From: Kiritimatiellia bacterium | Lineage (GTDB): Bacteria; Verrucomicrobiota; Kiritimatiellia; RFP12; DVOR01 | NCBI GenBank assembly: GCA_017531445.1 | Contig: JAFXKZ010000002.1 | Location: forward strand, 451,286 to 515,285 | Direction: 5' to 3' | Length of the DNA: 64,000 bases | Shown here: in pieces, positions 476 to 50,867 of the stretch | Position numbering within the stretch: the first letter of the stretch is position 1 | Layout: the number at the start of each line of letters is the position of its first letter | Translations under genes and position numbers: made by a program | Notes under the pieces: generated by a model | Database searches by the model: none | What the model was told of the DNA's origin: nothing | Seen by the model: only the letters and a program-made list of their open reading frames with translations

Positions 476-488
476 AGGAGTGAGACAT

Positions 489-3400
489 ATGTCCAACTTC
501 AAATTCTTTCTCTCCGCCCCATCCTTTGCCCCCTTCGCAGAGGTAGCTATTTCGGCGGAGAAAATCTTACATATTGACCCGGCTGCGTGTATTCTCAACT
601 GCCGCCGTGCCATGGAGTTTGCTGTGAAGTGGATGTATTCCGTGGACAAGGAACTGGAAATGCCTTATCAGGACAATCTCCAGAGCCTGATGGGCAGAGA
701 GGAATTCCGCTCCATCGTAGGGCCCGACATCTGGCGACGGATGGACTATATCCGCACCAAGGGAAACAATGTGGCACACAATTCCGGGAAGGCATCCAAG
801 GCGGCGGCTATGCTGTGTCTGGAGAATCTGCATATCTTCCTGGACTTTGTTGCCTACTGCTATGCGGACGAATATGAGGAAACTAAGTTTGATGCGGCGA
901 ATATACCCTCTCCGCCGCCGTTGGCGGCGCCTCTGCCAAAGGGAGAGGCAAGCTTGACTCCCCCTCTGGGGGAACTGTCACCGAAGGTGACTGAGAGGGC
1001 ATTGGCTGAACTGATCGAGGAAAACAAGGCACTGAAGGAGCAGCTCACTGCCCGCCGTGCCGAGCAACAGCAGACCTATGTACCCAAGCCCCTGGACATT
1101 TCCGAATATGAGACCCGAAAGCACTATATTGATGTGATGCTGGAGGATGCCGGCTGGACGGAAGGCAAGGACTGGATCAACGAAGTGGAGTTGCCCGGTA
1201 TGCCCAACAAGAGCGAGGAGGGCTTTGCGGACTATGTACTCTACGATGAAGCCCACAAGCCTCTGGCGGTCATCGAGGCTAAGCGTACCTGCGTGGATGT
1301 GTCCAAAGGCCGTCAGCAGGCGGAGCTTTATGCAGATATTTTGGAAAAGCAATACGGTCGCCGCCCGGCCATCTTCCTGACCAACGGTTTTGAGACGCGC
1401 ATCAGTGACGGCCAATATCCCGAACGCAAGTGTGCCACCATCTACTCCAAGCGGGACTTAAGCAAGATGTTCAACCTGCGCACCATGCGGACTTCCTTGA
1501 AAAATGTCATGGTGAAGAAAAACATCGCAGGCAGATACTACCAGGAAGGTGCAATCAAGGCCGTCTGCGATGCCTTTGATAAGAAGAACCGCCGGAAAGC
1601 TCTGCTGGTCATGGCCACCGGTTCCGGTAAGACCAGAACGGTCATCGCACTGTGCGATGTATTGCTGCAGCATGGCTGGGTGAAGAATATCCTGTTCCTG
1701 GCTGACCGGAACTCCCTGGTCACCCAGGCAAAGCGCAGCTTTGTGAATCTGCTGCCGGATTTGTCCGTGACCAATCTCTGCGAGGAGAAGGACAACTACA
1801 TCGCCCACTGTGTTTTCTCCACGTATCAGACCATGATGAATTGCATCGACAACGTGAAGGATGAGCAGGGTAAGCTGTTTACCTGCGGTCATTTCGACTT
1901 AGTGATCTGTGACGAAGCCCACCGCTCCATCTACAACAAGTACCGGGATATTTTCAACTACTTTGATGCACCTTTGGTTGGTTTGACGGCCACCCCAAAG
2001 AACGAAATCGATAAGAACACCTATGAGGTCTTTGAACTGGAAAACGGTGTGCCGACCTACGGCTATGAGTTGGCGCAAGCAGTCAAGGACGGATATCTGG
2101 TGGACTTCATGTCCGTGGAGACCAAGTTGAAATTCATGGATTCCGGTATCACTTATGAGGATTTACCGGAAGAGGAACGGGAAGAATACGAAAACACGTT
2201 CACCAACGAAAACGGTGAACTGCCGGAGAGAATCGTATCTTCTGCGCTGAATGAATGGGTATTCAATGAGGATACCATTCGTCAGATGCTCCATGTGCTG
2301 ATGACTGAGGGCATCAAGATTGACTACGGCCAGAAGCTGGGCAAGACCATTATCTTTGCCAAGAATCATGCCCATGCGGAGAAAATCTGCGAGATCTTCA
2401 ACAAGGAATATCCTCATCTGCCCGGATTTGCCAAGGTGATTGACAACAAGATCAACTATGCACAGAGCTTGATTGATGAGTTCTCCGATCCCAAGAAGTT
2501 GCCGCAGATCGCTATTTCCGTGGACATGCTGGACACCGGCATCGATGTGCCGGAGTGCTTAAATCTGGTCTTCTTCAAGAAGGTTATGAGTAAAGCAAAA
2601 TTCTGGCAGATGATCGGTCGCGGCACTCGCCTGTGCCCCGGTTTGCGGAATGGCGCGGATAAGGACAAGTTCTATATCTTTGACTTCTGCGGAAACTTTG
2701 AATTCTTCCGTATGGGAGGAAACGGTAAGTCAGCTACGCAAATTGCGTTGCAAGGCACAATCTTCAGCCTCAAGGCACAGATCGCCTATAAGCTGCAGGA
2801 CATCGCCTATCAAACACCGGAGTTGATCGCGTTCCGCAAGACCTTGGTGGATGACATGGTCCGCAAGGTGCAGGAATTGAACAAGGAGCACTTTGCGGTT
2901 CGCCAGCACCTTAAGTTTGTGGAACTATATTCCAACCCGGATAACTATACTGCGCTGACCTATGAGAACACATTGCAGATGCGGGATGAACTGGCGCCCC
3001 TGATTACACCGGATGCAGATGATGCCAAGGCGGTACGTTTTGATGCGCTGATGTATGGCATCGAACTGGCTTATCTTATGGGCAAGAAGTATGCCAAGGC
3101 AAGAAGTGACCTTTTTAAGAAGGTCAGCAGCATTGCTTCCGTGGCTAACATCCCGGAGATTATGGTGCAGAGTGAATTGATCAACAAGATCCTGCACACG
3201 GACTATTTGAAGAATGCAGGTATCAATGAGTTTGAACATATCCGTGAGAACCTGCGTGACCTCATCAAGTACATTCCCATCAATAAGGTGACCTATACCA
3301 CCAACTTTTCCGATGAGATTCTAACCATGGAATGGAACGAGTCCGAACTGGAAAATGACGATCTGGAAAACTACAAGATGAAGGCGGAGTTCTACATTCG

Positions 3401-3827
3401 TCAAAACCAGGACAATACGGTCATCGCCAAGCTGAAGACCAACCAGCCGCTGACATCTGCAGATGTGAAGATGCTGGAGGAAATTCTTTGGAGCGAACTG
3501 GGCACCAAGCAGGACTATGAAAACGAGTACGGCAGTAAGCCGTTGGGCGAGTTCGTCCGTGAAATCGTTGGCCTTGATATGATGGCTGCCAAGGAAGCCT
3601 TTGCGGAGTTCCTGAATGATACATCCTTAAACAGCAACCAGATTTACTTTGTGAACCAAATAGTTGAATACATTGTTCACAACGGTCTAATGAAAGATCT
3701 GTCCGTCTTGCAGGAGGCGCCCTTTACAGACAACGGCAGCATCGTGGAAATTTTTACTGACTTATCCCTCTGGCACAGAATCAAACAGATTATCGATTTA
3801 GTCAATACGAATGCCTCTGCGGCATGA
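489..3827 (+). CDS. hsdR: type I restriction endonuclease R subunit (HsdR)
   Basis: ATP-dependent translocase and nuclease subunit of a type I restriction-modification system; acts in the cytoplasm with HsdM and HsdS, which are not in the window and are probably upstream. The ATG at 489 is chosen over the GTG at 480 because AAGGAG at 475-480 is well placed. Visible order over 1,112 residues: an N-terminal DUF4145-like helical region (about 10-130); a low-complexity insert (140-171); an HSDR_N PD-(D/E)xK nuclease with the EAK motif near residue 263; an SF2 helicase with Walker A GSGKT near 378, DEAH at 475, LTATP, and motif VI QMIGRGTRLCPG near 707; and an EcoEI-type C-terminal region. All key motifs look intact, so it should be functional. 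Base and codon use look like Clostridia, and the insert derives from a Firmicutes-type repeat (see 906-1001), so horizontal transfer is likely. Confidence 0.93.
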   Translation: MSNFKFFLSAPSFAPFAEVAISAEKILHIDPAACILNCRRAMEFAVKWMYSVDKELEMPYQDNLQSLMGREEFRSIVGPDIWRRMDYIRTKGNNVAHNSGKASKAAAMLCLENLHIFLDFVAYCYADEYEETKFDAANIPSPPPLAAPLPKGEASLTPPLGELSPKVTERALAELIEENKALKEQLTARRAEQQQTYVPKPLDISEYETRKHYIDVMLEDAGWTEGKDWINEVELPGMPNKSEEGFADYVLYDEAHKPLAVIEAKRTCVDVSKGRQQAELYADILEKQYGRRPAIFLTNGFETRISDGQYPERKCATIYSKRDLSKMFNLRTMRTSLKNVMVKKNIAGRYYQEGAIKAVCDAFDKKNRRKALLVMATGSGKTRTVIALCDVLLQHGWVKNILFLADRNSLVTQAKRSFVNLLPDLSVTNLCEEKDNYIAHCVFSTYQTMMNCIDNVKDEQGKLFTCGHFDLVICDEAHRSIYNKYRDIFNYFDAPLVGLTATPKNEIDKNTYEVFELENGVPTYGYELAQAVKDGYLVDFMSVETKLKFMDSGITYEDLPEEEREEYENTFTNENGELPERIVSSALNEWVFNEDTIRQMLHVLMTEGIKIDYGQKLGKTIIFAKNHAHAEKICEIFNKEYPHLPGFAKVIDNKINYAQSLIDEFSDPKKLPQIAISVDMLDTGIDVPECLNLVFFKKVMSKAKFWQMIGRGTRLCPGLRNGADKDKFYIFDFCGNFEFFRMGGNGKSATQIALQGTIFSLKAQIAYKLQDIAYQTPELIAFRKTLVDDMVRKVQELNKEHFAVRQHLKFVELYSNPDNYTALTYENTLQMRDELAPLITPDADDAKAVRFDALMYGIELAYLMGKKYAKARSDLFKKVSSIASVANIPEIMVQSELINKILHTDYLKNAGINEFEHIRENLRDLIKYIPINKVTYTTNFSDEILTMEWNESELENDDLENYKMKAEFYIRQNQDNTVIAKLKTNQPLTSADVKMLEEILWSELGTKQDYENEYGSKPLGEFVREIVGLDMMAAKEAFAEFLNDTSLNSNQIYFVNQIVEYIVHNGLMKDLSVLQEAPFTDNGSIVEIFTDLSLWHRIKQIIDLVNTNASAA
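906..1001 (+). repeat. Firmicutes-type palindromic repeat inserted in frame in hsdR
   Basis: The stretch reads CCCTCTCCGCCGCCG, then a short spacer with GGGAGAGGCAAGC, then CTCCCCCTCTGGGGGA and CACCGAAGGTGACTGAGAGGG. It folds into nested hairpins (CTCTCC with GGAGAG; CCCCCTCTGGGGG; GTCACC with GGTGAC). From memory, this is the layout of an abundant intergenic repeat of Faecalibacterium, Ruminococcus and related Firmicutes. Here it is 96 bases long, a multiple of three, and is translated as a Pro/Leu/Gly-rich loop (residues 140-171) between the DUF4145-like and nuclease domains without breaking the frame. Confidence 0.8.
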
Positions 3828-19910: not shown

Positions 19911-22094
19911 ATGCATCGTTTTGGTTTCTACCGGATGGCACGAACAACGCAGGCTGCGTTAAAGTGCGGTGCCGACATTGAACACTTGAGTGAACTTGGG
20001 CGTCGGTATTGGTTGGTTCTCTCCTGTCCGGTGAATACCACACCTGCACTCAATGATGTTGCGCCGCTGTTGGACACTGACAAAGACGGCCGTGTTCGTA
20101 TTCCAGAGGTCTTAGCCGCTGTCGAATGGTTGAAGCCCCGCTTGAGTTCTTTTGATGTCCTATTTACGGAAGCGGAGGGTCTCGCTGCATCTGACATCCG
20201 GCAAGACACCGAAGAAGGAGCTGTTCTCAATAAACTCTTCACCTCCCTTTCCGATGGTTCTGCGTTATCCGAGCGAACACTTGCTGAAGCAATTGCCTCA
20301 TTCAAAGCCGGAGCCGCCAATGGCGATAGCGTCATTCCCGCAAGTGCGATTGACGCAAAATTCTCAACTGTTGCAGAGGCAATTCTCGCCGTTACCGGAG
20401 GAACACCTGCGTGTGACGGATCAAACGGCATCTCCGAGGCAGATTTAGAAGCATTTGCAGCAGCCCGTGATGCTTACCTCGCATGGAAACTTGCCAAGCC
20501 GGAATTCGGCGACTCCCTCAACGGGATCGCACCAGACGATGCCGTCGCATGCGTTGAGTCCATTGCAGCAAAGGTTGAAGCCTTCTTCTCTTCGTGCGAA
20601 CTCGTACGTTACAATCCGGCAGCGAAGGACGCCTTCATCCTTCCGACGACAACTGAAGCACTTCCGGACGCGCTCCTCGCGCTTCCCACGCCGGATGTAA
20701 AAGGCTTGCCGCTGACCCATGGCGTAAATCCGGCATGGGCCGGGCCATTGGCACAGCTCGCAAAGTTGCTTGATGAAGAAACGCTCACACCTGAACTATG
20801 GTTAAAAGCCAAAGAACGCGTTGCCCCCTTTAAGGCTTGGGCAGCGTCCAAACCTTCCGGCGCAGATATTTTTGCCGGAATGGATGAGCATATTCTGGAG
20901 ATGTCCGGTGACGACAACGTAAAGCGCATCATCAAAGAAGCCATCGCTGCAGATGCTGCGAATGCGCCGCTTGCGGCAGCCTTTGAAGATCTTAAGCGAT
21001 TAACAGTGCTTCGTCTTGGCTTCTTACGCTTCTTGCGGAACTTTGTCAATGTGGAAGATCTTTATCCTCCAGTTGCGAAACCTCTCTTCCTCACGGGTAC
21101 ACTTTATATGGATGAACGTGCCTGTTCGCTCTGCTTCCCGATTGAAAAGGCCGCAGCAGCCCATGCAAGCACAGCGGCAAACTCAAAGTGTTGCCTCGTC
21201 TATTGCACACTCTCACGCCCTGCAGAGAATCGTACACGCACCATCCTCGCTGTTTTCACTTCCGGTACTATCGGCAATCTTACCACAGGCAAACGCGGCA
21301 TTTTCTTTGATCTTGAAGGGAAAGATTGGGAAGCTACCGTCTGCCATGTCGTTCCAAATGCAATCAGCCTCACGGAAGCATTCTTTGCCCCATGGCGTAA
21401 GGTTGGTGAGGCGATCGCAGGGACGATCCACAAGTTCGTCGCCGGGAAAAACGATGCTACTACGGCGGCCATTACAACGAAAGCAACCACTGCAACCACT
21501 GCGGCAACGTCAGGTACTGCCCCTGTCTCCGGCGCGAACAACGGTGCGATGATGGCATCTGTTGCCACGCTTGGCATCGCACTTTCGTTCGTTGCTTCGG
21601 CCGTGGCGGGAATTACTTCGGCTCTTACAAGCACTCCGCTTTGGAAAACTGCGCTCGTAGTTCTGGGGATTATTTGCGTCGTTTCTGTGCCAAGTGTGAT
21701 TCTCACATGGTTGAAATTGCGCGCAAGAGACCTCGCGCCAATTCTCAATGCTTCCGATTGGGCAATCAATCGTTCCATTGGTTTCACGGCACGTATCGGA
21801 GCATTCTTTACCCAAAAAGCCTCATATGTCGGGAAGCGGTTCGTCTGTCCTCCAATGCGTCATCGCCTCTCGTGGGCGCACATCCTGCTGATCCTTACGA
21901 TTCTCCTTCTTGTGATTGGGATTTCAGGTTGGTTCTTCTGCCCCTTATCGCCGCGTAATCAAGCGAAAGCGGAATCAAAAGCTTCCTCTTGCTGTGCTGC
22001 GGCACAACCGGAAACACCAGCACCGGAATCAGAAACTCCTGCAACACCGGAAAAAACGTCTCTTCCGCAAACATCATCCGGATTGCCTGAATGA
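19911..22094 (+). CDS. large membrane protein of unknown function with an EF-hand loop
   Basis: No family recognised. The 727-residue protein has a canonical 12-residue EF-hand calcium loop DTDKDGRVRIPE (55-66). A long soluble region, rich in Ala and acidic residues, follows (about 70-520), with a CSLCF pair and a second Cys pair. A Thr/Ala-rich linker (about 525-545) leads to hydrophobic segments at about 550-572, 580-602 and 668-690, then a Pro/Glu/Thr-rich tail. The N-terminus lacks an obvious signal peptide, so the large domain is probably cytoplasmic, or exported by an unrecognised route. Starts 12 bases after the aminotransferase stop; its stop overlaps the agmatinase start (ATGA), so they are translationally coupled. 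Confidence 0.75.
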   Translation: MHRFGFYRMARTTQAALKCGADIEHLSELGRRYWLVLSCPVNTTPALNDVAPLLDTDKDGRVRIPEVLAAVEWLKPRLSSFDVLFTEAEGLAASDIRQDTEEGAVLNKLFTSLSDGSALSERTLAEAIASFKAGAANGDSVIPASAIDAKFSTVAEAILAVTGGTPACDGSNGISEADLEAFAAARDAYLAWKLAKPEFGDSLNGIAPDDAVACVESIAAKVEAFFSSCELVRYNPAAKDAFILPTTTEALPDALLALPTPDVKGLPLTHGVNPAWAGPLAQLAKLLDEETLTPELWLKAKERVAPFKAWAASKPSGADIFAGMDEHILEMSGDDNVKRIIKEAIAADAANAPLAAAFEDLKRLTVLRLGFLRFLRNFVNVEDLYPPVAKPLFLTGTLYMDERACSLCFPIEKAAAAHASTAANSKCCLVYCTLSRPAENRTRTILAVFTSGTIGNLTTGKRGIFFDLEGKDWEATVCHVVPNAISLTEAFFAPWRKVGEAIAGTIHKFVAGKNDATTAAITTKATTATTAATSGTAPVSGANNGAMMASVATLGIALSFVASAVAGITSALTSTPLWKTALVVLGIICVVSVPSVILTWLKLRARDLAPILNASDWAINRSIGFTARIGAFFTQKASYVGKRFVCPPMRHRLSWAHILLILTILLLVIGISGWFFCPLSPRNQAKAESKASSCCAAAQPETPAPESETPATPEKTSLPQTSSGLPE

Positions 22095-25325: not shown

Positions 25326-25364
25326 GTATAAAACAGATGGGGACGGGAACGCTCCTATCTGTTT
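25326..25364 (-). terminator. terminator overlapping the stop of the giant surface protein gene
   Basis: AAACAGAT (25331-25338) pairs with ATCTGTTT (25357-25364), extended inward by four mostly G-C or G-T pairs. On the minus strand the hairpin is followed by TTTTATAC. The hairpin base includes two bases of the stop codon at 25363-25365, so termination begins right at the end of translation. The 233 bases between mnmA and here hold no recognised gene. Confidence 0.7.
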
Positions 25365-28300
25365 AATTGAGGTCTGTTCGGCGGATACGCGCTGTTAGCT
25401 CTGTGGTTCCTATCGGAAAATTTGCTTCTGTAAACGGAATGGCGTAGAACCGCACCCCCGGCGTATGCGTTTGTGGAACAACCGTCGGCAAGGTCTTTTC
25501 TTCGAAGGTGGCAAGTTCCGTTCCGCTGAGGAAGGTTCCTTCTCCCACATCAAAGTCAATCACGGTATTCAACTGAAAGTCAGCCTTATTACCCGAACCC
25601 AAAATTGTTGAATCGAAAACTACAGCCAACTTATTCTCTACCTCAACCTTAACAACCACATAGAGTGATCTACCCTCTGCGGAAGTGTCAGCCAATTCAC
25701 GAATAACCAAATCGCTAATACCAAATTCATAGGCCATAAGCAGATCGCTCTCATCTTCTTTTCCTGCCACAGGTGCGAAGGTCCAGATATTGGAGAAGCA
25801 ACGGAATGCATTGCCGATCTCTGCTGCGTTCAACGCATAATAAGAGGTGACATGCGTTTCAGGTTCCATCTGTACCATCGTACGACCATCCGTTTTCGTC
25901 AAACGTGCGACATTATAACCTTGATAGTAACGAATAAGAATGGACTCAATCGTCGGATCATAAACATTCCCTTCGGCCATGCTGGGGTTTTGTGGAACTG
26001 GCACACCTGGTCTGTAAACTACATAATGTGACTGACACACCTTAGGCGATTCGCCGGCATCATGATTCACACCAACATCCCAACGTTCGCCATTGAATGT
26101 CGCAGCGTAGAAACGGCGACGAACTTCCGTGCGTGCAGTATCATCCAAGATATGAAAGAGAATGTCCCCATTTTTCACTGCGTCAGGCAATACCACCTGC
26201 ACGTCTGCAACCATACTTCCGTCCACCACGATCTTACGCACCGTCATACCAAGGCTGTCGGACAACTGCGCATCGCGGTTCAAACGTAAGACTCCGCCAA
26301 TCATTCCCGTCCCACTCAAAGTCTGTCCACCCTTGATGCAGGCAATGATATCCTCGGGGTTCGCGTAGTGATTAGGCTCAAGTGAGGCTCCTGCTGCCAC
26401 ATGCAACCCACTGTGTCCAATGGCAGCAGTAAGATGTTGGTCTAAATTCAAGGCGTCATCCGAGAAAGGTTCCGTACCCACGCGCAACTTCCCTTCTTCC
26501 ACGCGCACAGGCCCCGTCACCGTGGGCGGCGTAGGTGAACGGAAAGCCATAATGCCTGTGCCAACCTTGGTTAAACCGAGCGAGCCTCCTGTTGCGGTGT
26601 GATCAATGAGGCTTCTTGCCGTGTAACAGATCCAGCGTTCATTGCCTGCGGAATTAAGTGTGAGTACGGCAGGTTGATCCATTGGACCTTCAATGGCAGC
26701 AGCAGTAAAATTACAACGATGCGTATTATCCACACCATCAGCCTGACCATAACCATGCAACGTCGCTGTCGGGCCTGTCATCTTCACATTTTCCGTAAAG
26801 ACTACACCATTGGATTCCGAATCTTCACCAGCAGCATGGAAACGGAAGATTGCGTCCTTCCCCATCGTGAGCGACTTCGCCCAGAGGTGATTAGCTTCGC
26901 CATCTTGTTCTAGAATCGCATCATCGGCAATCACAAGATGAGTATCACGCAATTCGAAGTTCTGCCAGAAGTAGTTCTCTTTGCCATGCACTTCCAGCAT
27001 GGCGATAGAGTCACTCACCATCGGACGGCTAAAGGTACGATTCCTAAAGGCGTAGGTGCCCGTGGTGTGACCGTGAATCAAGGCACTCTCCAGTGTCACA
27101 AGCGTGGATGTACCACCCAATTCACCATTCACCTGTTCACCGATATCCTCAAGACGCACCGAAGTAATCAACTGTTTGGTGATGTACATGGCTCCATTGC
27201 CTGAGGTGGTGAGCAATTTTAAGGTCGGCACAGCTTCTTTATCAGTTGCGCCATTCTCTATGTGTAAGGTTGCGATAAGGCGTCCAGAGCCGGAAGGCAA
27301 GCTCTTATTTGCGTGAATCTTCCAAATTCCCTCCGGCACACGAATCTGGAAGGCGATAGCCGTCCCCATATCCGCTTGCGTTGCAAGAACAGGAGCCGGC
27401 GAAGCGTTCGCATCATCCTTGTAACCATAACGATACCATGGCAAGCCCGTGTTGGTGTTCGCATCAAAAGCTTCAAAGAAATCGCGAATATCTGTTATCT
27501 CCGTGTCGCTCAGATCCAAATAGAGACGACCGGGAATCTGCCGAATCTCTGCCAAGAGACCTGCTACCGTGCCGCCCGGATTGGAGTTCTCGCCATAAAT
27601 GGAGTTCGTCACATCCGTTAAAATCCAATTCACGCCATCATTGAACGCGGGCACCCAAACATACTCCGAGACCTGACCATTGGCATTCGGTTGCTCAATT
27701 TCCGCATTGCCCACAACCTTACCGCGACCTTCAATCTTACCGGTGAGGTGCAAGAAGTCCGTTTCCTCTTCTTCACGGCCACGAATCAAGGAGTAGTCCG
27801 CGTGCAATTCCAAGGTGGCTGGCACCAATTCACCATCCGCGGCAACACTTTCCGTAATCCAGCCGGTTTCATTCCACGCAGACCAATTATCATCGGAGTC
27901 CGCAGCATACGCAGGCTCCCAAAGATTTGACCACGTGATGTTGTTCTTGTTATTGCCCAGCCCCGACTGTGTTTGCGTTATGGTACGTGTGGCCGTCATG
28001 GTTTCCGTACCTGTCGTGGTTGAAACGCCGCCCACCAAAACACTGGCCAAACGCGAGAATTGAGCCACGCCGGCCGAGGGCGCAAAGGTCGCCGCCACAT
28101 CACCCCCTGTGAAGTTGCGACGATAGAGGCGTGTTTGTGTTACCGTGCGTGTCTTTTGCCATCTCACCTTCGAGACAGACTCAGCAGCACTTTCGGCTCC
28201 CACTGTCACCTCATCAGAAACAGGCGTTGGCGTACCCCCCACCTTTTCTACCGAACGGCGACCATGCACACCAAGTGCACTGTGGGGATTGTCATAACCA

Positions 28301-31300
28301 TCTGCTTCATATGCGGCTTTGGGATGAATGGCATCATTTCCTCCGCCGACGAACTTAATCGTGCCATAGCGCAATTCGTCACCTTCAGCAGTGGTCGAGT
28401 CCGCATTGACGATAACTTCCTTTGCCGTCATCCACTCGTGCATTTTCTGATTCTCAAAGGTGACTTCGCCACCGATGGGCTGCAACACCAAACGTGCACC
28501 CGTCGTCTTTGATGCTTCTGTATGGGGCAGGACATTGAGCGCAGAGTAGAGACGATTGGCCGAAAGAAAACCACTGACAGCATCCTTTTCGGTGTTCACC
28601 TGCAGCGTACAGTTACCCTTTACGAAGAGACGGATTTCTGCTCCCTCTGCGGGGCGTGCTTCACCTTCATCGGCGTGCACCCATACCGAGCCATTCCACG
28701 CTTCACGATGCCATGGTTTTGTGATGGCATCTTCCCAAAGGCCATCTTCCGTTACATCTCGCACATAACGCACGCCTTGATAGACAGGTGGGGCTTCTTC
28801 TGCCAAAGCCGCCATTGCTTTTGCCGTCAAAGCCCCCTTGTAGAAGCGGATGTAGTCCACATAACCGCCATCATCGGGTTCTGCCGAACGGAGGTTATTC
28901 ATGTCACCTGTATTCGACGAACCACTGAGAATCTGACCGACCTGCAAACCACCTGTCGCGAGGCCCACCCAATTCTCAGGCAATAAATATTCGGTCAACA
29001 AGCCGCCATCGAGATAAACGGTGAGCAACTTTCCATCGCAAACCACCGAAATCACATGCGGGATTTCAGAGATGTCAGCGATGTAGGCTGTTGCCACAGG
29101 CACCAATTCATCTGGAGCGGCGACATTGTAAGTCTCGCCAGTAATCGCATGATCAATGGCACGATAGAGCACAATCGGAATGGGCCCTGTCTGCCCCACC
29201 GTTTCACCCGTGGCCAAAATCAAAGCATCACCGTCAGGCAATTTGGGATTGTACGCACCACCGCAAGTGGAGCTGAGAGCCAAAAGGGTGGTATTGGCCT
29301 TACGCGGTGCCGTCAAACGAACGGCTGCGCTCCATACCTTCGGATATTGCAGATCGGAGAGTTCGATATACGGACGATAACAGAGCTTCACACCCTTACC
29401 GGCAGGGTTACGCGTATCGGTAAAGAACTTCTCTTCAGTCATCACTGAACCATAACTGTTCATATTGACCGAGCCGTTCCAATCCGTTCCCTTGAGGAGC
29501 GCATTGTGTTTGCCCACGCGCATCCAACCTGTATTGTAGGAATTGCCTTCAAATTCCGCATCAATCCATGCACTATTATGTGCGAAGTTGGGATATTCCC
29601 ATTCAAAGGTGTCATACGCACCATCCTCATTGGGCGTAATCGTCCATGTATTCTGATAATGCGGCACGAGGATGTTATTGTGGTCGTAGTGATAGAAGAC
29701 CAGGTTCTGCGCCACGATTTCCGGCAGGTGCGGAATGATGAGTTCACCACCATACGCACCCGCTTCTACGATTTCCAACTTCGGCGGATTCGCTTCATCA
29801 ATATTCTCCGGCCAGAGAATTGTCGCATCAGCGAATTGGTCCAAACGAATACGTAACGTCTGACCGTTCTGAATGCGCAGACGCGCATAGACATCAAGCT
29901 CTTCGGTTTCAGAGACATCTACCATCGGATACTGCGTCGCATCAAAACTCAAAATACCGCGATAAGGCGCAACCTCATCCTTGTGCGTTAAGGCCAAAAT
30001 ATCCGCCACCACAGAGGTGTCACGACGCCCTAAATAGCCAAAGGTGATATCACTGGTAATCCCATGCAGAGCATTCAAGCGAATGCTGCCGCCATCTAAG
30101 GCGTCATCACTTGAGGGGGACTGCGCTTGAATTGTGCCCTTAAAGTAACCCAAGTTATCAATGGTGACCGTGCCATTCACCGTGAGTGAACCTTCACCCA
30201 TGCCCGAAAGCGCATCAATCGTCAAGGTCGGACGCAAGGCTCGCACTTCACCCGCAGTAAGCGCGCGATCCCAAATGTAGCAGTTATCTACCTGCAGATT
30301 TGTAGCGGTCACACTATAACCGGCATTACTATAGCCTGCACCAATCTGAAAGCCTGGATATTCTGTGAAGATAAAAGGCGTAAGCATTGTTCCGGCCGTC
30401 GATACGCCATCAACAGAGAGCGTCACCTTTGTAGCAGTGATGGTTTTGGTGACAACTTCTTTCCCTTCCTCACCTTCCATCTTTACATGGATGTCGTGGT
30501 CGACCGCCACCACAAAGAGATGCCACCCCGAGGTGAGCGTATCAGACGTATAGCTCGCGTCCACAGTGACATCACTGCCATCATTGCCATCATAGCGAAT
30601 CACCTCAATGGTATTCCCACGCTTACGCAAAGCCAGAGCATTATCCCATGAACCCACCGAGAAGAGAACAGCATTCTCGGCCGTCACATTTTCCAAGTTC
30701 GCACCGAGCACAATCGAGTAATCACTCTCCACTGGCGGTGTTACACTTGCATAAGGCGTAACGATATTGCTAACGACAAATCCCTTTCCGGAGGGTGTAT
30801 CAATATAACTCGAGGGCGCGTTGCCACCCCATGCGGTAAACCAGGCCGCTTGAGCGTCTTTCACCACAATGGCATTATTCCCCTCAAACTCCATCTTCAT
30901 ATCGGCCTTCTCTGCAGCCGCCTTTTGGAAGCGCGGGGTGGCTTCCGAAGCATCAATGAGCACATCGCCATTCACGGCTAAACCACCGCCATTCACAAAG
31001 TCCGTGCCGAAAGTATAGATCGGCGTGGCACCCGTGGCCTTCAGTGTGCCCCCATTGAGCGTCATACGACGGCGAAGCGAAGGGGTCATATTCAAGTCAC
31101 CTTCAAGCACCAATTGACCATCCGTATTCACCATCACTTCGGCGGTACCGGTGATGGTCTCGGTAGAGCCCGCAGGCTGCGCCAAAAGGACGGGAACAGT
31201 CGCTTTGGCAGAATTGGCCTCACCTTCGCCATCACCCACAATCAATGCCGCATCATGCACTTGCGCGCCAAAGGTTATCTGCCCATGGAATTCACCTTGC

Positions 31301-32853
31301 TGTACGATATACTTCGCCACGGCTGCATCACCTTGGCCCAAGATAAGTCCCTCGCCGCCCACTGTCACCGTGCCGGCCTTTTGCACATACTGCGCATTGT
31401 TGTTCACACCATAACCCAAAACGAGCGAACCCACAAACTCGGTGGAGTCATAAGATTGAAGCGTTTGCACCGAAGGAGGTGTTGCTGCATCATTGTCAAC
31501 GCCGAGCACCAGAGAGGTGTTGCCCTCCTTCAACGGAATCGTGAAGGGCGAGACCATACGCAAAATACCAGAATTCTGTTCAATGAGTTCACGATAGTGT
31601 GAAAGCACATGCGGTTCACTCGTGGGAATCGCCAAAGCCAAACGCGAGGTCGCATCTCCATAAATGATGTTGGGCTTATTATTTTCGTCAATATGCGTCA
31701 CAATACGAATACTGCGCCCTGCAGGAATCGTGAGCGGATTACGGCCGAACCATGAAGACTGCGCATCCGAATCAATCAACATATCCGGATATGCAGCCAA
31801 TTCCAAGTCGCAATGAAGCGCAAAGGTTATCGGTGCCCAAATCTCACGCGGGATGACAGGTGCTCCTGCACCATCATACTCCAGGCGGATCATCTTAATC
31901 TCGCCTTCTGCATCTGCGACGTCACGGAAGTCTACCGGACCCTTAAAGGTATAACCATTGATAAAACGCACCGTGCCTGCGCGTGTGGCAGGTTGCCACG
32001 CCACCTCTCCTTCACCGGCAGGTTTCGTCCAAGTGGTGGCCGGCGTATTCGAGGCCACCACAAGTGCAGCCTGATTGAGGCTGTGGTCCATCGTCAAAAT
32101 GGCATCAGCCTCCATGAAGCGCACCACCACCATCGTATCCACGGCGTCATCGGTGGCATCAGTGAAGTTGTCCGTCGCCAACTGTTCCGACAATGAATGC
32201 GTCCCTGCCGTTAAATCATAACGGAAACGCTTCATCGTCATTGTGCCATCAAAAGACAAATAGGGCGAATAGAGAGGATCTCCCCCATCAATGCGCACAA
32301 AGGACTGGTCTGCATCCGTATATTCACTCGAAGCATTCCGGAAAACCGGTAAAAGCGGAGGCGTCGCTGCCGAGGTGACCAAACGCAATTTGTACGTCGC
32401 GTTTGTATTTAAGACTACCCCTTCACCAAAAGTATACTTATAGACACGTGCCTCTGCATAAGTGCCATTCTGGGCCGGCAAGCGCACCTGCGCGACCTCT
32501 TCTTTGGCTGTCGCATCACAGACTACCCCCCCCCGTTCATCCAAAATGGTTACGGTGCTGACGTAATTCAGGTTCGCAGTATTCGTCACCAGGTCAGGCA
32601 AAGATACCGATTTCACCGTCACTTGCGAACCCACAAAGTCAATCGGGCTCCCATTATAGGTGTAATGCCAGATCGGATCATTTAATGTAAAGGAAAGCGT
32701 CCGCTGCGTCAAACGCACATCATGAATCATCTCATGCGTTGACACTTGATCAAAGGTACTTGCTGTTAAAGGTGCTGAAAACTGTTCGGACACTGAAGCC
32801 ATGGTCAAGCACGACCATCCGAATACTAATACCATCCAAAACCGCTTCATCAT
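25363..32853 (-). CDS. giant secreted surface protein with LamG-like and autotransporter-type repeats
   Basis: A 2,496-residue protein, predicted to be exported. The ATG pair at 32853/32850 is chosen over an upstream start at 32994 because AGGAG lies 10 bases upstream and a clear signal peptide follows (MKRFWMVLVFGWSCLTMA). Two concanavalin-A/LamG-like regions are visible (around GWHLFVVAVDHD with SVDGVSTAGT, and IPHVISVVCDGKLLTVYLDGG). Near the C-terminus LTKVGTGIMAF...VRVEEGKLRVG resembles the autotransporter-associated beta-strand repeat. Many segments look like beta-helix turns, such as MTLNGGTLKATG. There is no autotransporter barrel and no PEP-CTERM, LPxTG or obvious type IX signal at the end. 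Probably a cell-surface adhesin or glycan-binding scaffold; monocistronic with its own promoter and terminator. Confidence 0.85.
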   Translation of the reverse strand: MMKRFWMVLVFGWSCLTMASVSEQFSAPLTASTFDQVSTHEMIHDVRLTQRTLSFTLNDPIWHYTYNGSPIDFVGSQVTVKSVSLPDLVTNTANLNYVSTVTILDERGGVVCDATAKEEVAQVRLPAQNGTYAEARVYKYTFGEGVVLNTNATYKLRLVTSAATPPLLPVFRNASSEYTDADQSFVRIDGGDPLYSPYLSFDGTMTMKRFRYDLTAGTHSLSEQLATDNFTDATDDAVDTMVVVRFMEADAILTMDHSLNQAALVVASNTPATTWTKPAGEGEVAWQPATRAGTVRFINGYTFKGPVDFRDVADAEGEIKMIRLEYDGAGAPVIPREIWAPITFALHCDLELAAYPDMLIDSDAQSSWFGRNPLTIPAGRSIRIVTHIDENNKPNIIYGDATSRLALAIPTSEPHVLSHYRELIEQNSGILRMVSPFTIPLKEGNTSLVLGVDNDAATPPSVQTLQSYDSTEFVGSLVLGYGVNNNAQYVQKAGTVTVGGEGLILGQGDAAVAKYIVQQGEFHGQITFGAQVHDAALIVGDGEGEANSAKATVPVLLAQPAGSTETITGTAEVMVNTDGQLVLEGDLNMTPSLRRRMTLNGGTLKATGATPIYTFGTDFVNGGGLAVNGDVLIDASEATPRFQKAAAEKADMKMEFEGNNAIVVKDAQAAWFTAWGGNAPSSYIDTPSGKGFVVSNIVTPYASVTPPVESDYSIVLGANLENVTAENAVLFSVGSWDNALALRKRGNTIEVIRYDGNDGSDVTVDASYTSDTLTSGWHLFVVAVDHDIHVKMEGEEGKEVVTKTITATKVTLSVDGVSTAGTMLTPFIFTEYPGFQIGAGYSNAGYSVTATNLQVDNCYIWDRALTAGEVRALRPTLTIDALSGMGEGSLTVNGTVTIDNLGYFKGTIQAQSPSSDDALDGGSIRLNALHGITSDITFGYLGRRDTSVVADILALTHKDEVAPYRGILSFDATQYPMVDVSETEELDVYARLRIQNGQTLRIRLDQFADATILWPENIDEANPPKLEIVEAGAYGGELIIPHLPEIVAQNLVFYHYDHNNILVPHYQNTWTITPNEDGAYDTFEWEYPNFAHNSAWIDAEFEGNSYNTGWMRVGKHNALLKGTDWNGSVNMNSYGSVMTEEKFFTDTRNPAGKGVKLCYRPYIELSDLQYPKVWSAAVRLTAPRKANTTLLALSSTCGGAYNPKLPDGDALILATGETVGQTGPIPIVLYRAIDHAITGETYNVAAPDELVPVATAYIADISEIPHVISVVCDGKLLTVYLDGGLLTEYLLPENWVGLATGGLQVGQILSGSSNTGDMNNLRSAEPDDGGYVDYIRFYKGALTAKAMAALAEEAPPVYQGVRYVRDVTEDGLWEDAITKPWHREAWNGSVWVHADEGEARPAEGAEIRLFVKGNCTLQVNTEKDAVSGFLSANRLYSALNVLPHTEASKTTGARLVLQPIGGEVTFENQKMHEWMTAKEVIVNADSTTAEGDELRYGTIKFVGGGNDAIHPKAAYEADGYDNPHSALGVHGRRSVEKVGGTPTPVSDEVTVGAESAAESVSKVRWQKTRTVTQTRLYRRNFTGGDVAATFAPSAGVAQFSRLASVLVGGVSTTTGTETMTATRTITQTQSGLGNNKNNITWSNLWEPAYAADSDDNWSAWNETGWITESVAADGELVPATLELHADYSLIRGREEEETDFLHLTGKIEGRGKVVGNAEIEQPNANGQVSEYVWVPAFNDGVNWILTDVTNSIYGENSNPGGTVAGLLAEIRQIPGRLYLDLSDTEITDIRDFFEAFDANTNTGLPWYRYGYKDDANASPAPVLATQADMGTAIAFQIRVPEGIWKIHANKSLPSGSGRLIATLHIENGATDKEAVPTLKLLTTSGNGAMYITKQLITSVRLEDIGEQVNGELGGTSTLVTLESALIHGHTTGTYAFRNRTFSRPMVSDSIAMLEVHGKENYFWQNFELRDTHLVIADDAILEQDGEANHLWAKSLTMGKDAIFRFHAAGEDSESNGVVFTENVKMTGPTATLHGYGQADGVDNTHRCNFTAAAIEGPMDQPAVLTLNSAGNERWICYTARSLIDHTATGGSLGLTKVGTGIMAFRSPTPPTVTGPVRVEEGKLRVGTEPFSDDALNLDQHLTAAIGHSGLHVAAGASLEPNHYANPEDIIACIKGGQTLSGTGMIGGVLRLNRDAQLSDSLGMTVRKIVVDGSMVADVQVVLPDAVKNGDILFHILDDTARTEVRRRFYAATFNGERWDVGVNHDAGESPKVCQSHYVVYRPGVPVPQNPSMAEGNVYDPTIESILIRYYQGYNVARLTKTDGRTMVQMEPETHVTSYYALNAAEIGNAFRCFSNIWTFAPVAGKEDESDLLMAYEFGISDLVIRELADTSAEGRSLYVVVKVEVENKLAVVFDSTILGSGNKADFQLNTVIDFDVGEGTFLSGTELATFEEKTLPTVVPQTHTPGVRFYAIPFTEANFPIGTTELTARIRRTDLN

Positions 32854-32901
32854 CTGAGCTATGCTCCTATGTGTAACCACGATCTCTACAAGTGCCAAAA
32901 A

Positions 32902-32923
32902 CTCACAGAGAATTACCTGTGAG
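32902..32923 (-). other. leader hairpin of the surface protein gene
   Basis: CTCACAG/CTGTGAG with an 8-base loop lies in the untranslated leader, between the early terminator-like hairpin and the ribosome site. It may be part of an attenuation switch or an mRNA-stabilising structure. Confidence 0.45.
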
Positions 32924-32940
32924 CGTGACATCATGACATC

Positions 32941-32973
32941 AAAATAAAAAAAGCTTCTCCTATTCAAGGAGAA
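32941..32973 (-). terminator. early terminator-like hairpin in the surface protein leader (possible attenuator)
   Basis: On the minus strand TTCTCCT-TGAAT-AGGAGAA (plus 32955-32973) is followed by GCTTTTTTTATTTT. This is a textbook intrinsic terminator, yet it begins only about 3 bases after the predicted transcription start and about 90 bases before the start codon of a 7.5-kb gene. It either truncates most transcripts unless antiterminated, or protects the 5' end. Confidence 0.65.
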
Positions 32974-32982
32974 CTCACTACC

Positions 32983-33011
32983 AGTATATCTCAAATAAGG
33001 AAATTATGCAA
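32983..33011 (-). promoter_or_regulatory. promoter of the giant surface protein gene
   Basis: Minus-strand TTGCAT (plus 33006-33011), 17-base spacer, TATACT (plus 32983-32988). Predicted start near 32976, leaving a leader of about 120 bases. Confidence 0.75.
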
Positions 33012-46503: not shown

Positions 46504-46536
46504 TGACAGCGATGGTCTCCATCGCTGTCACTTTTT
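46504..46536 (+). terminator. intrinsic terminator of the mraZ-dedA operon
   Basis: GACAGCGATGG (from 46505) pairs perfectly with CCATCGCTGTC (to 46529), followed by ACTTTTTAA. About 30 bases after the dedA stop. Confidence 0.9.
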
Positions 46537-47057: not shown

Positions 47058-47086
47058 TTAACATTTTCACATTAGTATGTTATGAT
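47058..47086 (+). promoter_or_regulatory. promoter of the haem/SUMF1 protein gene
   Basis: TTAACA (47058-47063), 17-base spacer, TATGAT (47081-47086), about 48 bases before the ATG at 47135. AAAAGGTG serves as a ribosome site. Confidence 0.6.
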
Positions 47087-47134: not shown

Positions 47135-50100
47135 ATGAAAATGTTTCCGACAACCGTTGCCCTCTGTGCTTTTAGCATAGTCGCATCCACGCGTTTGCAA
47201 GCTGCCGTTGACGCCCGTTTCATAACAATTGATTTACCACGGGATTCTGCAACGCTCTCTCTGGCAGAAGTGGAAGTCTTTGCCAACGGCATCAATGTTG
47301 CCACAAAAGGTGCTGCCACGCAAACCGACACCGCGCATGGCGGCGCAGCAGCACGTGCCATTGACGGGAACATTTCCGGAGTCTGGGAGGAAAACTCCAT
47401 CACCCACACGCCGGAAGGCAGCAATCATCCCGCATGGGAAGTTGATCTGGGAGCCACCTACCCTGTTGAAAAAATTGTTGTCTGGAATCGCAACATACTC
47501 ACCGAGCGTCTTGACGGCTTCCGCGTCACCGTCTCCGATGCCGGGCGCACAATCCTCTGGGAAGCCACGCACGGAAAAGCCGGACGCACGGCTTATTTTG
47601 TCCCGGAAGTCGGCAAGTCACCCCGTGCAGGCCAGCGGTTGCCGACGCTGGACGAACAGCAAAAGCAAATCCGTTTGCGCTCCCTGCTTGCAAACATGAA
47701 CACCCAATCGCTCCGCGAAGCACTCACGGTTTATGCCGAAAAGTATCCTGACGCCTACCCGGATGCCGCAGCGACCTTGCAAGCGATTGACGACCTCGAA
47801 AAAACCATTCTCGCCGGGCAAGCCAACGACAACACCCTTAAAGCTTTCCGGGAATTGCAGAAAAAAGTGCTCTTGAAGCACCCGGCCGTGGATTTTGACG
47901 AGCTCCTTTTCATCAATCGCCCCAAAGGAACCAAACAAGGGCTTTTCCAAAACTATCAAGGCAATACCGCCTGGCTCGGCGACAACAATCAAACGCTCCG
48001 CGGCTACCGTAACACCCTCTTGCGCGGCCCCATCTGTCAGGATATGGGCGAAGCGAAGGTCATCCGCGCCTCCACTGCCTACATGGGCGAACTTTGCCTG
48101 GATTGGGATGCTCAAAAAATCCTCCTCTCTTCCGGCGATGAAAAGAGCGGTCCTTGGGGGATCTATGAAGTGAATCTCGATGGCACTGACTGGCAGAAAG
48201 CCTACGAAGATCCCAATCCGGAAGTGGACTATTACGATGCCTGCTACCTCCCCGATGGACGCATCATCACCACGGCAACGGTGGGTTTCAATGGCGTGCC
48301 CTGTGTCTCCGGCGGCGACTATGTGGCGAACTTGCAATTGATTGAGCATGATCGCAAAACGGCCCGTCGCATTACGTTTGACCAGGATATCAACTGGAAT
48401 CCGGAAGTTTATCCCAATGGACGCGTCGTTTTTCTGCGCTGGGAATATACCGACTCGGCGCACTATTTCTCCCGCGTATTGATGACGATGAATCCTGATG
48501 GCACCGATCAACAAGAATTTTATGGTTCCAACAGCTATTGGCCCAACGCTGTTTTCTACCACCAGAATATTCCGGGCAGCTCAACGAAGTTTGTCGGCAT
48601 CGTTACCGGTCACCACGGTGTCGCACGAAAAGGCGAACTGGTGCTCTTCGATGTCGCCAAAGGACGCATCGAAACACAGGGCGCAGTGCACAAGTTTCCG
48701 TTCCGTGGCAAGCCCATTGAAAACATCACAAAAGATCAGCTCGTTGACCATATCAAACCTTACTTCCTCCATCCCCGTCCGCTCAATGACGAGATTATTC
48801 TCGCAGCAATGCAAGACGATGGTGCCTCTCCCTGGCGGATTGTGCTCGTTGACATCTACGACAATGTGCTGACGCTTTGGGAAGCTCCGGATGCGAACTA
48901 TTACGAGCCCATCCCGCTCAAAGCGCGTCAACGCCCGGCCTACCGCCCGGACATGGTAGACCTCTCCAAGAAAACGTGCAATGTCTATATGGCAAATGTC
49001 TATCGCGGGCAGAAAACACTGGAAGGTGTGCCCAAGGGAACGGTGAAAAAGCTTCGCGTCTTCAACTATGAATATGCGCCCCGTCATTCCGGCGGACACT
49101 ATGCCATCGGCATGGAAGGCCCGTGGGACGTACGCGTTCTGCACGGCACCGTTGATGTGGAAGAAGATGGATCGTGTATGTTCGAGTTCCCGGCCAACAC
49201 CCCGCTCAGCGTTCAGCCTTTGGACGAAAACGGACGCGCTTTGCAGATGATGCGCTCGTGGCTGGTTGGTATGCCGGGCGAAACGATCAGCTGCATTGGC
49301 TGTCATGAAAGCCAAAACGCCGCAGCACCTTCCGGACAATCCACCGCTGCTGCACGCAAGCCGCCTCAAAAGATCAAACCTTGGTACGGAGAGAAGCGTG
49401 GCTGGGGCTTCGATCGTGAAGTGCAACCGCTTCTTGACCGTAAGTGCGTGGGGTGCCACAATGGCACGAATACCGCCACGACCAAGTTGGGGATGCCGTT
49501 GCCTAATTTCACCTATCGCAAGAACGTCTGGAATGGTTTCAGCGGAGCCTACCTTGCCTTGCATCCCTATGTCCGCCGCAATGGTCCTGAAGGGGACTAT
49601 CATGTGCTGACGCCTTTGGAATTCAACGCCATGACCTCTGAGCTTATTCAAATGCTGAAAAAAGGGCACCATGGTGTCACATTGACAACCGAAGACTGGG
49701 ACCGTCTCTATACGTGGATCGATCTCAATGTCCCCTATTTCGGCACATGGTCTGAGCGCGGAGCCAAGCAACACTACATTCAAAGTCGGCGCGACTATGA
49801 AAAGCGATTGGCTGCATTGGATTATAATCCCGAAGAGATTATCAATCCATACGAACCGGGAAAAATCGCTTTTGAAGCACCGGCAACCGTTGAAAGCAAA
49901 ACGGAAGCAATTGCGCTTGACGGTTGGCCGTTTGACGGGAGTAAGCGTCAAGGAAAGCAAGAAACCATGACGTTGAATATCGGCGGTGACCAAACCTTGA
50001 CCCTCGTTAAGATTCCCTCCGGCTCCTTCATCATGGGTTCCAACTCGGAATCGCCGGCCGAAGCTCCTGCACATGTCGCCACCATTGACAAGCCTTTCTA

Positions 50101-50785
50101 CATGGGAACGACTGAAATCACCATGGGCATGATGCAGCAATTCGACCCGACATTTGAAAATGGCGTCTACGATATGCACTACAAAGATCAAGTGCGTCGC
50201 GGATACTTCGTGAATGATCCTGACTTCCCGGCCATTCGCGTTAGCTATGAGAAAGCCGAAGCGTTCTGCGCATGGCTCTCGGAAAAGACCGGCAAAAAAG
50301 TGCGCCTGCCGACCGAAGTCGAATGGGAATATGCTTGCCGGGCCGGGACTGATACACCGATGAACTATGGCGATTTCAATACCGATTTCGGCACTCATGC
50401 CAACCTCGCCGATGTAACCATGAAACGCCTTGCCGTGCATGGTATTGATCCCCAACCCATTCGCAACCCCGACAAATGGTGGGACTACGAACTCAAAGAC
50501 CCGCGTTTCTATGATAAAGTCCTCCACTTGGCAAAGGTTGGTTCCTACACCGCCAATGCCTTCGGACTGAAAGATATGCACGGCAATGTGGCAGAATGGA
50601 CAAGCTCGCCCTTCACAGCCTATCCCGGCGGAGTTGAAGTTGAAGCATTTGACCCTGCGCTGCGCGTCATCCGCGGCGGCTCGTGGTATCAACGTCAACA
50701 CCGCGCCACTTCTGCATGGCGCTGGGGTTATCCCACCTGGCAACGCCCCTACAATGTCGGCTTCCGCGTGGTTGTTGAAGACTGA
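47135..50785 (+). CDS. secreted multidomain protein: discoidin-like, HzsA-like with two CxxCH, SUMF1
   Basis: A 1,216-residue exported protein. ATG 47135 is chosen because a ribosome site precedes it and a signal peptide follows (MKMFPTTVALCAFSIVASTRLQA, in part). Order: an F5/8C discoidin-like carbohydrate-binding region (about 25-150); a helical linker; a beta-propeller-like region related to the hydrazine synthase alpha subunit (about 260-800); two haem c motifs, CIGCH and CVGCH, about 60 residues apart; and a C-terminal SUMF1/FGE-sulfatase fold (about 950-1216: PSGSFIMGSN, RLPTEVEWEYACRAGT, MHGNVAEWTSS, RGGSWYQ, GFRVV). The cysteines after GGSW needed by true formylglycine-generating enzymes are absent (YQRQHRATSAW), so the SUMF1 part is probably a binding module. 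Such proteins are known in PVC bacteria without clear function. Likely periplasmic or surface-located, redox-related. Confidence 0.9.
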   Translation: MKMFPTTVALCAFSIVASTRLQAAVDARFITIDLPRDSATLSLAEVEVFANGINVATKGAATQTDTAHGGAAARAIDGNISGVWEENSITHTPEGSNHPAWEVDLGATYPVEKIVVWNRNILTERLDGFRVTVSDAGRTILWEATHGKAGRTAYFVPEVGKSPRAGQRLPTLDEQQKQIRLRSLLANMNTQSLREALTVYAEKYPDAYPDAAATLQAIDDLEKTILAGQANDNTLKAFRELQKKVLLKHPAVDFDELLFINRPKGTKQGLFQNYQGNTAWLGDNNQTLRGYRNTLLRGPICQDMGEAKVIRASTAYMGELCLDWDAQKILLSSGDEKSGPWGIYEVNLDGTDWQKAYEDPNPEVDYYDACYLPDGRIITTATVGFNGVPCVSGGDYVANLQLIEHDRKTARRITFDQDINWNPEVYPNGRVVFLRWEYTDSAHYFSRVLMTMNPDGTDQQEFYGSNSYWPNAVFYHQNIPGSSTKFVGIVTGHHGVARKGELVLFDVAKGRIETQGAVHKFPFRGKPIENITKDQLVDHIKPYFLHPRPLNDEIILAAMQDDGASPWRIVLVDIYDNVLTLWEAPDANYYEPIPLKARQRPAYRPDMVDLSKKTCNVYMANVYRGQKTLEGVPKGTVKKLRVFNYEYAPRHSGGHYAIGMEGPWDVRVLHGTVDVEEDGSCMFEFPANTPLSVQPLDENGRALQMMRSWLVGMPGETISCIGCHESQNAAAPSGQSTAAARKPPQKIKPWYGEKRGWGFDREVQPLLDRKCVGCHNGTNTATTKLGMPLPNFTYRKNVWNGFSGAYLALHPYVRRNGPEGDYHVLTPLEFNAMTSELIQMLKKGHHGVTLTTEDWDRLYTWIDLNVPYFGTWSERGAKQHYIQSRRDYEKRLAALDYNPEEIINPYEPGKIAFEAPATVESKTEAIALDGWPFDGSKRQGKQETMTLNIGGDQTLTLVKIPSGSFIMGSNSESPAEAPAHVATIDKPFYMGTTEITMGMMQQFDPTFENGVYDMHYKDQVRRGYFVNDPDFPAIRVSYEKAEAFCAWLSEKTGKKVRLPTEVEWEYACRAGTDTPMNYGDFNTDFGTHANLADVTMKRLAVHGIDPQPIRNPDKWWDYELKDPRFYDKVLHLAKVGSYTANAFGLKDMHGNVAEWTSSPFTAYPGGVEVEAFDPALRVIRGGSWYQRQHRATSAWRWGYPTWQRPYNVGFRVVVED

Positions 50786-50828
50786 TTGCGATACGTAGTC
50801 TCCATAGCGTAGACAGAATATCCAGTTG

Positions 50829-50867
50829 AGCGATGCTCCATCCCAAGGGGCATCGCTTAGTTTTTTT
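50829..50867 (+). terminator. intrinsic terminator of the haem/SUMF1 gene
   Basis: AGCGATGCTCC (50829-50839) pairs with GGGGCATCGCT (50847-50857), with one G-T pair, followed by TAGTTTTTTT. Confidence 0.92.

Follow-up and report, generated by a model that had tools for sequence, protein, structure and literature searches.

A hydrazine synthase alpha-like protein with a putative F-type lectin and a SUMF1 fold from a Kiritimatiellia bacterium, and its possible cytochrome c partners

Introduction

The origin of hydrazine synthase (HZS), in which the alpha subunit docks with the beta and gamma subunits, is a matter of debate, and to our knowledge the enzyme was until recently regarded as having no relatives. 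In a stretch of 64,000 nucleotides from a Kiritimatiellia bacterium (the window), one gene codes for a protein of 1216 amino acids in which an HZS alpha-like core, two CxxCH motifs, a lectin-like domain and a SUMF1 fold are joined, which raises the question of whether such a protein acts by itself or as one subunit of a redox complex, and at which target. A paper of December 2025 described homologs of HZS alpha and beta/gamma from outside anammox, with no function assigned to them according to the main text (PMC12758564), and a preliminary description of the locus was thus right that this domain combination has no described function. The same description took the organism for a fermentative gut-type bacterium, which it does look like, its closest named relatives being gut Kiritimatiellae such as Candidatus Spyradenecus. 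Its genome (1.4 Mb in two contigs) is about 50% complete, and absences were judged on congeneric genomes.

Results and discussion

The gene and its surroundings

The protein is encoded by a single open frame running from an ATG to a stop codon (Table 1), with AAAAAGGTG directly 5' of the ATG. The translation starts with MKMFPTTVALCAFSIVASTRLQA followed by AVDAR, which by eye resembles a signal peptide, and from this N-terminus we infer that the protein is exported. Taken together, the frame, the Pfam matches, the CxxCH pair and the signal-like start agree with the earlier reading of a fusion that looks secreted and unites HzsA-like, di-haem and SUMF1 parts.

A strong hairpin is found upstream of the gene (46504-46530) and a terminator-like one just downstream, and with the promoter-like site at 47058 they make the gene look like a transcription unit of its own. 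Promoter-like sites around the gene are not more numerous than in shuffled sequences, and the 47058 site is accordingly weak evidence. Elsewhere in the window are a 2543-aa ORF with a TTG start (25363-32994, minus strand) and a 727-aa ORF (19911-22094, plus strand), neither with a Pfam match at 1e-5, as well as a Type I restriction enzyme R-subunit-like protein (480-3827, plus strand; ResIII, EcoEI_R_C).

Table 1. Features of the HZS alpha-SUMF1 gene and its flanks, in window coordinates.
Feature	Position	Strand	Basis
Promoter-like site TTAACA-17-TATGAT, TG before -10	47058..47086	+	Consensus match 10/12
HZS alpha-SUMF1 protein with putative F-type lectin, 1216 aa	47135..50785	+	ORF, Pfam, genus matches
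Signal-peptide-like N-terminus, residues 1-23	47135..47203	+	n/h/c-region pattern, by eye
Putative F-type (fucolectin) lectin domain, ~residues 24-160	47204..47614	+	phmmer to FBP32 3cqo and fucolectins
TolB/HZS-alpha-type beta-propeller, ~residues 255-600	47897..48934	+	AF2 model, Foldseek 5c2v_A
HZS_alpha middle domain, residues 635-725	49037..49309	+	Pfam PF18582, 9.6e-32
CIGCH, haem I site (HZS haem alphaI position), residues 720-724	49292..49306	+	
CVGCH, haem II site (HZS haem alphaII position), residues 771-775	49445..49459	+	
SUMF1/FGE-fold domain without FGE cysteines, residues 956-1213	50000..50773	+	Pfam PF03781, 8.9e-42
Intrinsic-terminator-like hairpin, 16-bp stem and T-tract, just 3' of the gene	50824..50862	+	

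Fold and domain composition

The domains follow one another in the order lectin, HZS-alpha propeller, middle domain, two CxxCH motifs and SUMF1 fold, and three Pfam families (F5_F8_type_C_2, HZS_alpha and FGE-sulfatase) match above their curated cut-offs. With 17 close sequences as input, AF2 gave a poor model (pLDDT 61); the one used instead was built from 56 sequences and has a mean pLDDT of 88.8 and a pTM of 0.81. When this model was searched with Foldseek, the best match among PDB chains was hydrazine synthase alpha (5c2v_A, 4.7e-27), over 786 columns and with a TM of 0.62 on the target, in agreement with a sequence profile search (1.7e-28). A viral fold search with the alpha model returned single parts only, for instance SUMF1-like proteins and propellers. 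The propeller, the middle domain, the two c-haem sites and their order are shared with HZS alpha of Kuenenia stuttgartiensis (5c2v chain A, 16% identity), whereas the 1216-aa protein lacks a Tyr591-type ligand and has the additional F-type lectin and SUMF1 domains.

The N-terminal domain had been described as discoidin-like. A domain of the F5/8C type is indeed present (F5_F8_type_C_2, residues 74-139, 4.9e-11), but its sequence points to an F-type lectin and not to discoidin domains in general, since phmmer retrieves FBP32 (3cqo, 7.6e-31), the fucolectins 2j1r and 2j22, and bacterial members at 1e-11 to 1e-18. F-type lectins bind fucose through a His-Arg-Arg triad, to which H91, R119 and R125 correspond in the alignment, all three being unchanged in 15/15 genus orthologues. 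Both the sequence and the triad are thus shared with F-type lectins such as FBP32 (3cqo) and the SP2159 type (2j1r), from which the putative lectin differs in being fused to a haem protein. The family match and the intact triad make fucose binding probable, and the suggestion that the protein binds a glycan gains in weight.

Distribution of the family

Relatives from other genomes were collected at 79 loci, in records titled Kiritimatiellae, Verrucomicrobia, Lentisphaerae, Planctomycetota, Hydrogenedentota, Armatimonadetes and Omnitrophota. HZS_alpha and SUMF1 were found together in all 40 of the relatives that were scanned, with an F5/8C domain in 8-9 of these and an NPCBM domain in one. Within the genus, an alpha match exists in 17 of 17 genomes and is in most cases full-length. 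Paralogues occur in many of these genomes, and their sequences read as the same core with either an NPCBM-like N-terminus or none. Judging from these sequences, the HZS alpha-SUMF1 core is a widespread family and the 1216-aa protein no isolated oddity. In a tree of the alpha proteins, the main group without SUMF1 forms one clade (support 1.0); support is weak at the deeper nodes, and numerous loci are truncated. As a separate observation, the sister family (L168-L174) has up to 31 HZS_alpha matches per genome against one to three beta/gamma genes, and its highest-scoring HZS_alpha matches are without SUMF1.

Predicted haem loading and haem supply

The CIGCH of the haem I site aligns to C-S-G-C-H of HZS alpha, and the CVGCH of the haem II site to C-A-M-C-H. 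Of the 79 relatives, 77 have both sites and the remaining two are cut off before that region; with such conservation the pair is not a chance occurrence. According to the preliminary description, haem attachment would be unlikely in a genome devoid of cytochrome c maturation genes; both CcsA and ResB are encoded in the organism's own genome. With CxxCH motifs in an exported-looking protein and a maturation system alongside, the protein can be classed as a predicted c-type cytochrome.

How specific the maturation genes are was looked at in one congeneric genome (G027, 93% complete), which contains 52 CxxCH sites at the DNA level, compared with 105 for a reversed control pattern. When 50 of the 52 sites were examined (47 stretches), alpha and beta/gamma were the only exported-looking frames with at least two CxxCH. 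Two CxxCH also occur in one more frame (L205), which lacks a signal sequence and was judged to resemble a zinc protein, and an orthologue fragment at a contig end (L065) is without the haem region. Since no exported-looking multi-haem proteins other than alpha and beta/gamma were found there, CcsA and ResB of this genome are probably dedicated to the alpha-beta/gamma system. Ferrochelatase (PF00762) was found in 0 of the 17 genus genomes, the control being positive in 8 reference genomes, and CcsA is present in 16 of these 17 despite that absence. This suggests that members of the genus are haem scavengers which still build c-type cytochromes, with haem supplied from outside or by another route.

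A putative beta/gamma partner and the case for a complex

In several phyla, the neighbour of the alpha gene codes for a protein with a YVTN propeller and a di-haem CCP/MauG part. One such neighbour matches both HZS beta (3.9e-36) and HZS gamma (1.8e-26), which identifies it as a fused HZS beta/gamma homolog. The organism studied here has its own beta/gamma gene (G000:C2:62263-63927; HZS gamma 3.7e-15, HZS beta 1.4e-12), adjoined by the gene for a double RidA/L-PSP protein, with ResB and CcsA genes adjacent to each other ~45 kb away. Having both an HZS_alpha domain and a beta/gamma homolog in its genome, the 1216-aa protein appears to belong to the non-anammox HZS alpha-like family. The alpha gene does not adjoin beta/gamma in this genome or at the loci inspected in the genus. 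Records from Planctomycetota, Akkermansiaceae, Fimbriimonadaceae and Hydrogenedentota have the two genes side by side. The gene order in the sister family is beta/gamma, RidA, ResB, CcsA (L162-L166, with Pfam support for L163), and a genome of another family (L247) has RidA, alpha, beta/gamma, ResB and CcsA clustered in ~10 kb, the alpha there carrying a laminin-G domain and no SUMF1. In a genome which we take to be that of A. muciniphila (G247; similarly, G235 is taken for Opitutus terrae), alpha-SUMF1, beta/gamma and RidA genes stand in a row (L244), the beta/gamma having three CxxCH; the literature searches made returned nothing on this row.

The published non-anammox pairs (clades I-IV, Hagglund et al. 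2025, PMC12758564) likewise consist, according to the main text, of co-located alpha and fused beta/gamma, and likewise miss key HZS residues. By contrast, its main text on these clades has no SUMF1 or lectin fusion, RidA-like neighbour or cytochrome c assembly genes; gut Kiritimatiellae and Akkermansia are also absent from it, Opitutus terrae being the Verrucomicrobiota member that it names.

The genes also co-occur across genomes. In a sample of the order (145 genomes), alpha was found in 62, CcsA in 64, beta/gamma in 57 and RidA in 65, with all four in 53; 56 genomes have both alpha and beta/gamma, 6 alpha only and 1 beta/gamma only. Alpha and beta/gamma were each found in 67 of 338 genomes sampled over the phylum, together in 62 of the 72 positive genomes and singly in five each. 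The Fisher p values for these counts are tiny and assume an independence which related genomes violate, so that the genus-level count is fairer: in the phylum sample, 25 of the 28 genera with alpha also have beta/gamma. CcsA accompanies alpha in 59 of 62 alpha genomes of the order, and in 14/14 genomes chosen outside it.

Considering the HZS fold, the family, the adjacent genes, the co-occurrence, the presence of CcsA, the lectin and the exchangeable N-termini, we regard it as reasonably probable that the 1216-aa protein is a glycan-aimed alpha-type subunit of a non-anammox, HZS-like cytochrome c complex. Points against it are the separate position of the alpha gene in this genome and at the genus loci inspected, the surplus of alpha copies over beta/gamma, the two genus genomes with alpha but no beta/gamma named below, and the missing ferrochelatase of the 17 genus genomes. 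The earlier picture of a lone electron carrier does not fit a protein which is of the subunit type in a conserved gene set, and which has a beta/gamma homolog and a RidA-like protein in its own genome. An alternative, which we find unlikely while still deserving attention, is that the protein is a stand-alone surface lectin or sensor, with structural or redox-sensing haems, that never pairs with beta/gamma. Its gene is alone between the upstream hairpin and the downstream terminator-like one, the N-terminal lectins vary, and alpha is present in two genus genomes, G009 (94% complete) and G050, in which neither beta/gamma nor RidA was found. Alpha copies also outnumber those of beta/gamma, so that some alphas may act alone. 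Against this alternative stand the near-perfect co-occurrence of alpha and beta/gamma over the phylum and the adjacency of their genes in several families and phyla.

The SUMF1 domain

The best SUMF1 match of the C-terminal domain is PvdO (5hha), with human FGE among the best PDB matches. The catalytic pair of human FGE is Cys336/Cys341, and no cysteine is found between RGGSW (aa 1180) and the C-terminus of the 1216-aa protein. As had been noted from the start, the FGE cysteines are thus missing, and the domain is no formylglycine-generating enzyme; with PvdO and FGE it has the fold and the DMHGNVAEW motif in common. The C-terminal region (RGGSWYQRQ..RA.SA.RWGY) is nearly invariant within the genus. 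A match to a Treponema variable protein had prompted us to consider a DGR-diversified CLec/SUMF1 protein, but the C-terminus is not hypervariable and ranks with the best-conserved parts of the protein, so this reading was dropped. Both the invariance of this region and the PvdO match would suit a catalytic SUMF1 domain that oxidises a glycan or peptide in the manner of PvdO or EgtB, the haems only supplying or removing electrons. We judge this improbable, since no metal-binding or catalytic residues can be assigned in it, and since alphas without SUMF1 adjoin beta/gamma elsewhere (L246, L247).

Residues of the haem sites and the possible reaction

HZS requires Tyr591 of its alpha subunit, the proximal ligand of haem alphaI (PMC12607021), which is placed four residues past His587 of the CxxCH in PMC12607021 and in the main text of PMC12758564. 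No tyrosine is found at this position in the CIGCHESQN of the 1216-aa protein, nor in its relatives. The published non-anammox homologs also lack Tyr591 and were judged unable to form hydrazine, as stated in the main text (PMC12758564). On the beta/gamma side, the position of HZS gamma His144 (counted on the 5c2v_C alignment) is occupied by Ile in the organism's own protein, by Ile or Val in those of the order and by Ser in L141; L104 is the single sequence with Trp, the residue of CCP/MauG. Near the second haem, beta/gamma of the order (L147-L167, L210, L226-L230) have PYLYDG in place of the conserved PYLHDG motif, a His to Tyr change. Most beta/gamma of the order have a Cys in a CNxxG motif that is absent in other phyla, and the alignment of this Cys (HCNRAG) with HZS gamma Cys165 carries a three-residue gap.

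That the protein belongs to a true hydrazine synthase, an unrecognised anammox chemistry in gut bacteria, is hardly credible: one genome does have homologs of all three HZS subunits, but the Tyr591 position, the Ile at that of gamma His144 and the conclusion against hydrazine synthesis which the main text of PMC12758564 draws for its own homologs all speak against it. Since the HZS and CCP/MauG catalytic sets are both incomplete in beta/gamma, the reaction cannot be read from the sequences; our guess is a peroxidase-like or NO/hydroxylamine-type chemistry on a small molecule or a nearby ligand, rather than hydrazine synthesis.

For the complex favoured here, the protein would be exported and CcsA/ResB would attach haem at both CxxCH sites, after which alpha could dock, on the outer side of the cytoplasmic membrane, with its beta/gamma counterpart. 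The gamma-like haem would then be the catalytic centre and alpha would give a second haem site, with the lectin, and perhaps also the SUMF1 fold, fixing the complex to fucosylated or other glycans. The other alpha paralogues, with an NPCBM-like N-terminus or no lectin, may serve other surfaces.

Conclusions

More tentatively, gut Kiritimatiellae and Akkermansia may possess all parts of an HZS-like alpha/beta/gamma redox system, together with dedicated genes for haem loading, a RidA-like helper and alphas aimed by lectins. If so, interchangeable lectins on many alphas would direct an HZS-like system at different glycans, fucosylated mucin for example, and fermentative, haem-scavenging bacteria would gain an undescribed extracytoplasmic haem chemistry, involving NO, hydroxylamine or peroxide. 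A genetic test is offered by at least one member of the genus, in which this system seems to be all that the cytochrome c assembly genes serve. As the HZS-like gene set (alpha, beta/gamma, RidA-like, ResB and CcsA) occurs in gut bacteria, among them probably A. muciniphila, which can be cultured, it makes a tractable system, from which the role of the HZS fold outside anammox could be learned.
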